Positions 172-876 of a DNA stretch of 58,248 nucleotides are shown here, one piece after another. A program made the translations under genes and the position numbers. Every line of letters begins with the position of its first letter. Position 1 is the stretch's first letter. Location: the NCBI GenBank assembly GCA_025361625.1, contig JANYKL010000035.1, positions 1-58,248 on the forward strand, read 5' to 3'. The notes below the pieces were generated by a model that ran no database searches, had not been told where the DNA came from, and saw only the letters and a program-made list of their open reading frames with translations. The DNA is from Acidobacteriaceae bacterium (lineage in GTDB: Bacteria > Acidobacteriota > Terriglobia > Terriglobales > Acidobacteriaceae).

Positions 172-876
<705 letters not shown>

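Follow-up and report, generated by a model that had tools for sequence, protein, structure and literature searches.

Is the TGA at positions 484–486 of this DNA a stop codon, or is it read as selenocysteine (Sec)? The window (the whole 58,248-nucleotide stretch of an Acidobacteriaceae genome that was analyzed) begins with two plus-strand open reading frames (ORFs), 172–486 (TTG start) and 523–876, that share one frame, and this TGA is the sole in-frame stop between 172 and 873. A sequence-only reading had described these ORFs as split by a single TGA, with an active site GSYT-U-PPFR and a downstream YITEAHPSDVW, and both elements are there as stated: residue 105 is the TGA codon, in the context GSYT-U-PPFRR, with YITEAHPSDVW downstream. 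Read through, the gene (172–876, plus strand) encodes 234 residues from the TTG, which an in-frame TAG (163–165) precedes, to a TGA stop at 874–876, and it is the first complete gene in the window. On sequence grounds, its assignment as a deiodinase-family selenoprotein gene is nearly certain.

The joined 234-residue protein matches the Pfam family T4_deiodinase (PF00837) over residues 64–231 (E 9.2e-34; 117.2 bits, curated cut-off 27), and the 129 codons after the TGA do so by themselves (E 2.8e-25); a search with only the 104 codons that precede the TGA gave no Pfam match at 1e-3. The best PDB sequence matches are mouse Dio2 (E 3e-23) and mouse Dio3 (E 1.6e-22), so that the read-through protein, whose alignment had been proposed as a check, does align with the deiodinases. 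The NCBIfam profile NF038285 (‘deiodinase family protein’, 347 amino acids) matches residues 65–229 (E 6.5e-59) with 200.1 bits, under its curated cut-off of 250; the catalytic half matches, in contrast to the first 176 profile positions, and one clade-B protein and the cysteine form L067 (see below) match likewise. In 14 aligned homologues, identified by tblastn, the GSxT-U-PPF motif and the loop-D motif EAHPSD.W are kept, save P138, which is nearly invariant. The loop-D region itself (residues 132–154, positions 565–633, plus strand) is defined by this conservation and by alignment to Dio2 and Dio3. A larger set of 87 distinct proteins was selected for containing both GSx[TS][Sec/Cys]P[PN]F and EAH, and the invariance of those residues within it is therefore by construction; it comprises 71 proteins of clade A, the window's clade (one side of a branch with 99/95 support), and 16 of clade B.

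An AlphaFold2 model built from 14 sequences (pLDDT 76.7, pTM 0.74) consists of an N-terminal helix (residues 2–27, positions 175–252, plus strand) and a thioredoxin fold, with confidence below 50 at residues 138–148 and 150–154 of the loop-D region. The top structure in VIA-align is Dio2 (9h48; Z 18.0, rmsd 3.0, 165 residues aligned), with DsbE/ResA-like proteins at ranks 2–4 within 1 Z of it and peroxiredoxins at about 15–17, and Foldseek places ResA first and Dio2 fourth. Fold alone cannot tell a deiodinase from a ResA-like protein or a peroxiredoxin; sequence does. The thioredoxin-fold core is shared with ResA/CcmG/TlpA proteins and peroxiredoxins (Z about 15–18), but this protein has no CxxC, carrying Sec and one conserved distal cysteine instead, together with the loop-D insertion. 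By visual inspection, the region of residues 2–27 is hydrophobic across the alignment of 14 homologues. This predicted helix and an N-terminus positively charged by eye, the only two features on which the placement rests, suggest that the helix is a membrane anchor and that the thioredoxin-fold domain is extracytoplasmic, presumably periplasmic.

Were the TGA a true stop, the locus would hold either a decayed gene or two proteins, the second restarting at 523. Possible TTG starts in both ORFs are compatible with this reading, as are two TGA-bearing genomes lacking a selA match (G075, G701), but the codon itself behaves otherwise. In a search whose pattern fixed the flanking residues and allowed any codon at the site, TGA occupied it in 44 of 44 rows (35 distinct), and a second set of 40 loci, for which the site could be Sec, Cys or a stop of any kind, gave 39 TGA, one TGC, and neither TAA nor TAG. 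(A codon table of 65 rows had been picked for TGA and is hence no measure of its conservation, and L031 gave no motif row, as an unknown base just past the TGA breaks the frame.) Downstream of the TGA, 595 codon comparisons with five close relatives show 65, 30 and 286 differences at codon positions 1, 2 and 3, a skew that places this region under coding constraint. The second ORF would also start inside the helix following the active site (108–125 in the AlphaFold2 model), without the active-site motif. Relatives with a stop at this point and nothing coding beyond it were sought, and what the relatives hold is the TGA followed by coding sequence. Taken with the covarying hairpin described below, this makes decay or a split into two proteins very improbable.

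The family is widespread in the host's order, where 106 of 397 genomes match at 1e-10 and 82 of 397 contain a TGA-bearing match, a count that takes in some fragments as well as matches in G369 and G389 with one more stop, and that leaves out Cys-type matches as well as those in G210, G340 and G380, which lack the TGA stretch. In a phylum sample, 18 of 396 genomes match at 1e-20, 15 of them outside the order. The sequence-only reading was thus correct that bacterial relatives exist, whereas its ‘small numbers’ do not hold for an order with 82 such genomes among 397. Among viral contigs, 29 stretches fitted a pattern and none was a relative; among plasmids, only two of 72,556 records gave a match, both weak (25–31% identity).

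Immediately downstream of the TGA lies a hairpin with the properties of a bacterial SECIS element (497–513, plus strand): a GGCGGG/CCCGCC stem (497–502 with 508–513) closing an apical AGGUU loop (503–507) 16 nt from the UGA. The bacterial SECIS model, as set out in text passages of PMC13188914, specifies a loop of 3–9 nt, a stem of 4–16 bp, a G at loop position 1 or 2, a distance of 16–37 nt from the UGA and a minimum free energy of at most −7.5, and this hairpin lies within these limits (AGGUU loop, 6 bp, 16 nt, −13.3 kcal/mol). In a gapless alignment of 69 distinct 42-mers that begin with the TGA, the 6-bp stem (columns 14–19 with 25–30) is paired in 97.6% of 414 cells, as compared with at most 65.7% for slid stem registers, and three of the six pairs have changed on both sides. 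None of 500 shuffles reached the observed values for pairing, two-sided-change cells or covariation score, and 16 of 500 did so for the other two measures. The stem reads GGCGGG/CCCGCC in the main clade and GUCGCC/GGCGAY in four distant members (L069–L072), AG occupies loop positions 1–2 in all 69 42-mers, and all six pairs are intact in 60 of 70 distinct 42-mers. Silent sites are frozen across codons +5 to +7 (CGG 64/64, GAG 65/65, GTT 61/62), as against valine codons elsewhere in the segment, which have a heterozygosity of 0.63–0.71, most of those nearby using all four codons. Single-sequence folding being unexceptional relative to shuffles (z about −1.2), the evidence for the hairpin comes from its covariation, the frozen silent sites and the test against the model given below. 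Rfam, scanned over positions 1–3000 with E values up to 10 admitted, contributed no family of relevance; three snoRNA-like matches there were judged to be chance.

When the model's four constraints were scored with uninterrupted stems, 64 of the 71 TGA sites of clade A conformed to it, compared with 149 of 4260 positions elsewhere in these genes; clade B had 6 conforming TGA sites out of 14, over a background of 60 in 960. Eight of the ten clade-B TGA loci from the rest of the phylum break at least two pairs of the main-clade stem, and the failing clade-B sites mostly carry weaker hairpins of different sequence with a G-bearing loop, none being found in L121 and L127. SECIS support is accordingly strong in clade A, to which the window belongs, and partial in the more distant clade B. 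Across the clade-B phylum loci L120–L127 and L130, hairpins differ in sequence or register, narrowly miss the energy limit, or are absent (L121, L127), and L124, L125 and L130 have in common a 7-bp GAAGAUC stem at 21 nt; these hairpins possibly represent another SECIS class.

The same locus carries a minus-strand ORF (238–894, 218 amino acids, GTG start) that is longer than either half of the deiodinase-like gene, raising the question of whether the plus-strand reading is merely the shadow of a gene on the other strand. Resembling ORFs do form a single-linkage cluster spanning 32 of the 49 compared sources, but searches with the plus-strand product gave Pfam, PDB and structural matches, the third-position divergence fits the plus frame, and that strand has the consecutive silent sites frozen where the hairpin lies. 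We do not believe the antisense ORF to be a gene, a reading that we consider barely credible; it is likely a trap for gene callers, and annotations may carry it instead of the selenoprotein gene.

Decoding UGA as Sec requires dedicated machinery, and the search for selA, selB, selC and selD that the sequence-only reading had proposed located all of them in the host genome (G000; 95.7% complete, 196 contigs, the window lying on contig C80). Profile searches identified selA (513.3 bits) and selB (360.8 bits, above cut-off) on contig C34, tRNA-Sec is encoded on contig C12 (71.4 bits), with a TCA anticodon according to ARAGORN (a UCA tRNA-Sec), and selD lies on contig C59. The Sec machinery thus shares a genome with the TGA (484–486, plus strand; residue 105) that relatives keep, although the deiodinase-like gene (hereafter dio) and the sel genes are on different contigs and not adjacent. 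The host selD (L032; G000:C59:3081-4031) itself contains one in-frame TGA, within AAGUASKL, so that SelD is probably another selenoprotein; in the dio-linked cluster L066, selD has no in-frame stop. As a further candidate Sec client, formate dehydrogenase alpha (TIGR01591) was sought: G000 has none at 1e-60, and the nine matches in five of the eight genomes queried have no in-frame stop.

Across the order, selA (1e-60) is present in 77 of the 82 genomes with a TGA-bearing match versus 98 of the 315 others (odds ratio 34, Fisher p 1e-26), values that are indicative only, as related genomes are treated as independent. The five TGA-bearing genomes without a selA match are G075, G322, G356, G379 and G389, the last four of which are 74–83% complete; G322 and G356 have selB and tRNA-Sec despite the missing selA match, while selB is split into two same-frame pieces in G389 and present only as fragments in G379. 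G075 (98% complete) has no selA match, a weak tRNA-Sec, and only a truncated selB beside dio (L068). This selB is missing its N-terminal part, and the adjoining dio keeps both TGA and SECIS; the locus possibly represents Sec decoding caught during loss, or else an assembly fault. Outside the order, selA accompanies dio in 14 of 15 matching genomes, the exception being the TGA-bearing G701 (97% complete). Second, weaker tRNA-Sec-like genes occur at G203:C1:401231-401321 and G152:C2:598307-598396, the strong one lying in each genome's sel cluster.

In 15 loci, dio lies within a few kilobases of sel genes. Eleven of these (L065, L066, L073, L075–L081, L083) have the order selD-selA-selB-dio on one strand, the three sel genes being confirmed by profiles in L066, and in nine of the eleven tRNA-Sec lies beyond selD, which gives selC-selD-selA-selB-dio; ARAGORN found no tRNA-Sec in the other two, L076 and L077. 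Among the remaining loci, the sequence of L082 begins within the cluster (selA-selB-dio), dio is divergent in L074 and adjoins tRNA-Sec and selD-selA-selB, L068 has the truncated selB only, and the L104 stretch stops within selB. As 13 of the 15 were picked because listed coordinates placed dio near selA, the sel-linked share of TGA-bearing order genomes is at least 13 of 82. All 15 genomes form one well supported clade (100/99), which indicates that the linkage arose in one ancestral event and has been kept since. This linkage in relatives and the covarying hairpin at 497–513 go beyond what had been claimed for the locus and add support for reading the TGA as Sec.

Cysteine forms complement this picture. 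L067 (genome G255) has a TGC codon and is nested among Sec forms (98/89), and its hairpin has two broken pairs, a lost loop G and an energy of −6.9 kcal/mol; neither of two Cys forms passes the SECIS model. G255 has no selA, no tRNA-Sec at 1e-8, and a selB-like fragment, below cut-off, at a contig start, which is the state that loss of Sec decoding should leave. A Cys form (TGC) can also coexist with selA, as it does in G586. Other Cys relatives (L132–L137) have FGSxTCP, a shorter loop D and a histidine kept near Dio3 His219, and members of this group occur alongside a Sec form in G192, G257 and G064. Mouse Dio2 and Dio3 group with part of clade B, on branches so long that we make no claim on origin.

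What the enzyme might do is suggested by its active site. Dio3 numbering, here the alignment index plus 113 by our own count, reproduces the residues named in passages of PMC11592359 and PMC9141512, the former also being the source of the proton-relay residue list. S102, T104, Y132, E135, H137 and R199 are invariant in all 14 tblastn homologues. In common with animal Dio1–3 (4tr3, 9h48), the protein has GSxTUPPF, the loop-D EAHPSD.W, relay Ser/Thr/Tyr/Glu/His residues, an N-terminal membrane anchor (here predicted) and the thioredoxin fold. In contrast to the animal enzymes, the relay histidine (Dio3 His219, Dio2 His182) is replaced by Pro157 (69/71 in clade A, 14/16 in clade B), substrate-pocket residues are changed, and the SECIS lies within the ORF rather than in the 3′UTR. 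Gating Phe258 of Dio3 corresponds to Pro197 in 87 of 87 proteins, and the Dio3 Arg275 column to Pro215 in 65 of 71 of clade A. The proximal cysteine (Dio1 Cys124, Dio3 Cys168) is Tyr103 in 69 of 71 clade-A proteins. According to the relevant passages of PMC9141512, this cysteine is needed in Dio1 for reduction by glutathione and is alanine in Dio2, which thus lacks it too; its replacement by tyrosine implies that the recycling route here probably differs. The distal cysteine occupies another alignment column than in the animal enzymes: Cys170 (679–681, plus strand) is the only mostly-Cys column of clade A besides residue 105 (70/71, one gap), making it a candidate resolving cysteine. That column holds Phe in 9 and Cys in 3 of the 16 clade-B proteins, eight of which have a Cys at 153.

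Given the conserved TGA, a covarying SECIS at the right distance and the complete Sec machinery, residue 105 should be Sec, inserted by SelB and Sec-tRNA as the SECIS directs. The N-terminal helix would hold the protein in the membrane with its catalytic domain outside the cytoplasm, where the Sec105 selenolate, backed by S102, T104, Y132, E135 and H137, may attack an oxidized or halogenated small molecule. As the proximal cysteine of Dio1 and Dio3 is tyrosine here, the oxidized selenium would probably be resolved by the distal Cys170 or an external thiol, with re-reduction probably by an extracytoplasmic thioredoxin-like partner. Taken as a whole, this explanation (a PF00837 selenoprotein with SECIS-directed Sec105, presumably membrane-anchored and probably recycled through Cys170) is one in which we have high confidence, and our best guess for its activity is a membrane-anchored, extracytoplasmic Sec reductase with a Se–S step at Cys170.

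Deiodination of thyronines, to judge from the missing relay histidine and Dio1/Dio3 recycling cysteine, is not supported. A broader reading is that of a reductive dehalogenase, in which Sec105 would remove I, Br or Cl (as X+) from organohalogens that occur naturally in soil or peat, as Dio does with iodothyronines. Retention of the deiodinase-specific loop-D EAHPxD.W and of five of the six relay residues (as listed in passages of PMC11592359) speaks for it, as does the keeping of Sec where a Cys form is possible; the prolines in place of the relay histidine (Pro157), gating Phe258 (Pro197) and Arg275 (Pro215) speak against it, and ResA-like proteins and peroxiredoxins fit the fold nearly as well. 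Nor does gene context favor it. The 3′ neighbors in the window encode a histidine kinase, a response regulator, an FG-GAP/ASPIC-UnbV protein, an amidase and an amino-acid permease, of which the histidine kinase alone recurs among the 48 compared loci, and only in L018, so that the neighborhood points to no substrate. Outside the sel genes, no shared neighbor, and hence none tied to organohalogen use, was found among the ORF clusters identified from the 48 loci and the window start (several clusters, one of 13 loci, fall outside that identification). We regard the dehalogenase as a rather unlikely alternative. If the protein is a selenoprotein as preferred here, reduction of peroxides or of disulfide-type substrates is the reaction we favor, with modest confidence; reductive dehalogenation is possible, at clearly lower probability, and some other reaction is less probable again.

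The literature has described deiodinase-like selenoproteins in bacteria since 2005, with a report from the Sargasso Sea (PMC1088965, where a redox role is suggested) and others from the GOS data (PMC2398784) and in reviews (PMC9312934, PMC13188914). As far as these papers describe them, they resemble the present family in their PF00837 domain, active-site Sec, bacterial SECIS right after the UGA and the existence of Cys forms. In contrast, the two reviews list a UxxC motif, where the proteins described here have UPPF and no Cys at +3; the GOS table gives no motif. The stem ‘acidobacteri’ is absent from the main text of all four papers. Passages of PMC1794560 count three selenoprotein families for Acidobacteria, and its main text does not contain ‘deiodinase’. 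Occallatibacter riparius is credited with three known selenoproteins in text passages of PMC12013277 that leave the families unnamed, and a deiodinase-like gene may possibly have been recorded among them. Within the accessible parts of the open-licence literature searched, we met neither the acidobacterial breadth, nor UPPF in place of UxxC, nor linkage to a sel cassette. The bacterial family, then, is already known, and its acidobacterial branch looks widespread and little studied.

A more far-reaching proposal, which we put forward as a long shot, is that Acidobacteriota keep the Sec code largely for a membrane-anchored, extracytoplasmic dehalogenase of deiodinase fold, recycled by its distal cysteine and acting on soil and peat organohalogens; one clade would have gathered it into a selC-selD-selA-selB-dio cassette, and it would be a bacterial counterpart of the enzymes from which thyroid-hormone deiodinases later arose. 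Whatever the substrate, what had been a rare metagenomic curiosity becomes a broad, testable family of a soil phylum, carried by about a fifth of the order's sampled genomes (82 of 397), whose genes can be cut in two at the TGA or masked by an antisense ORF of greater length. In the sel-linked subclade, a client gene adjoins a natural Sec cassette of compact size, and Cys170 and Pro157 provide handles on the role of deiodinase-fold selenoenzymes outside thyroid-hormone metabolism.
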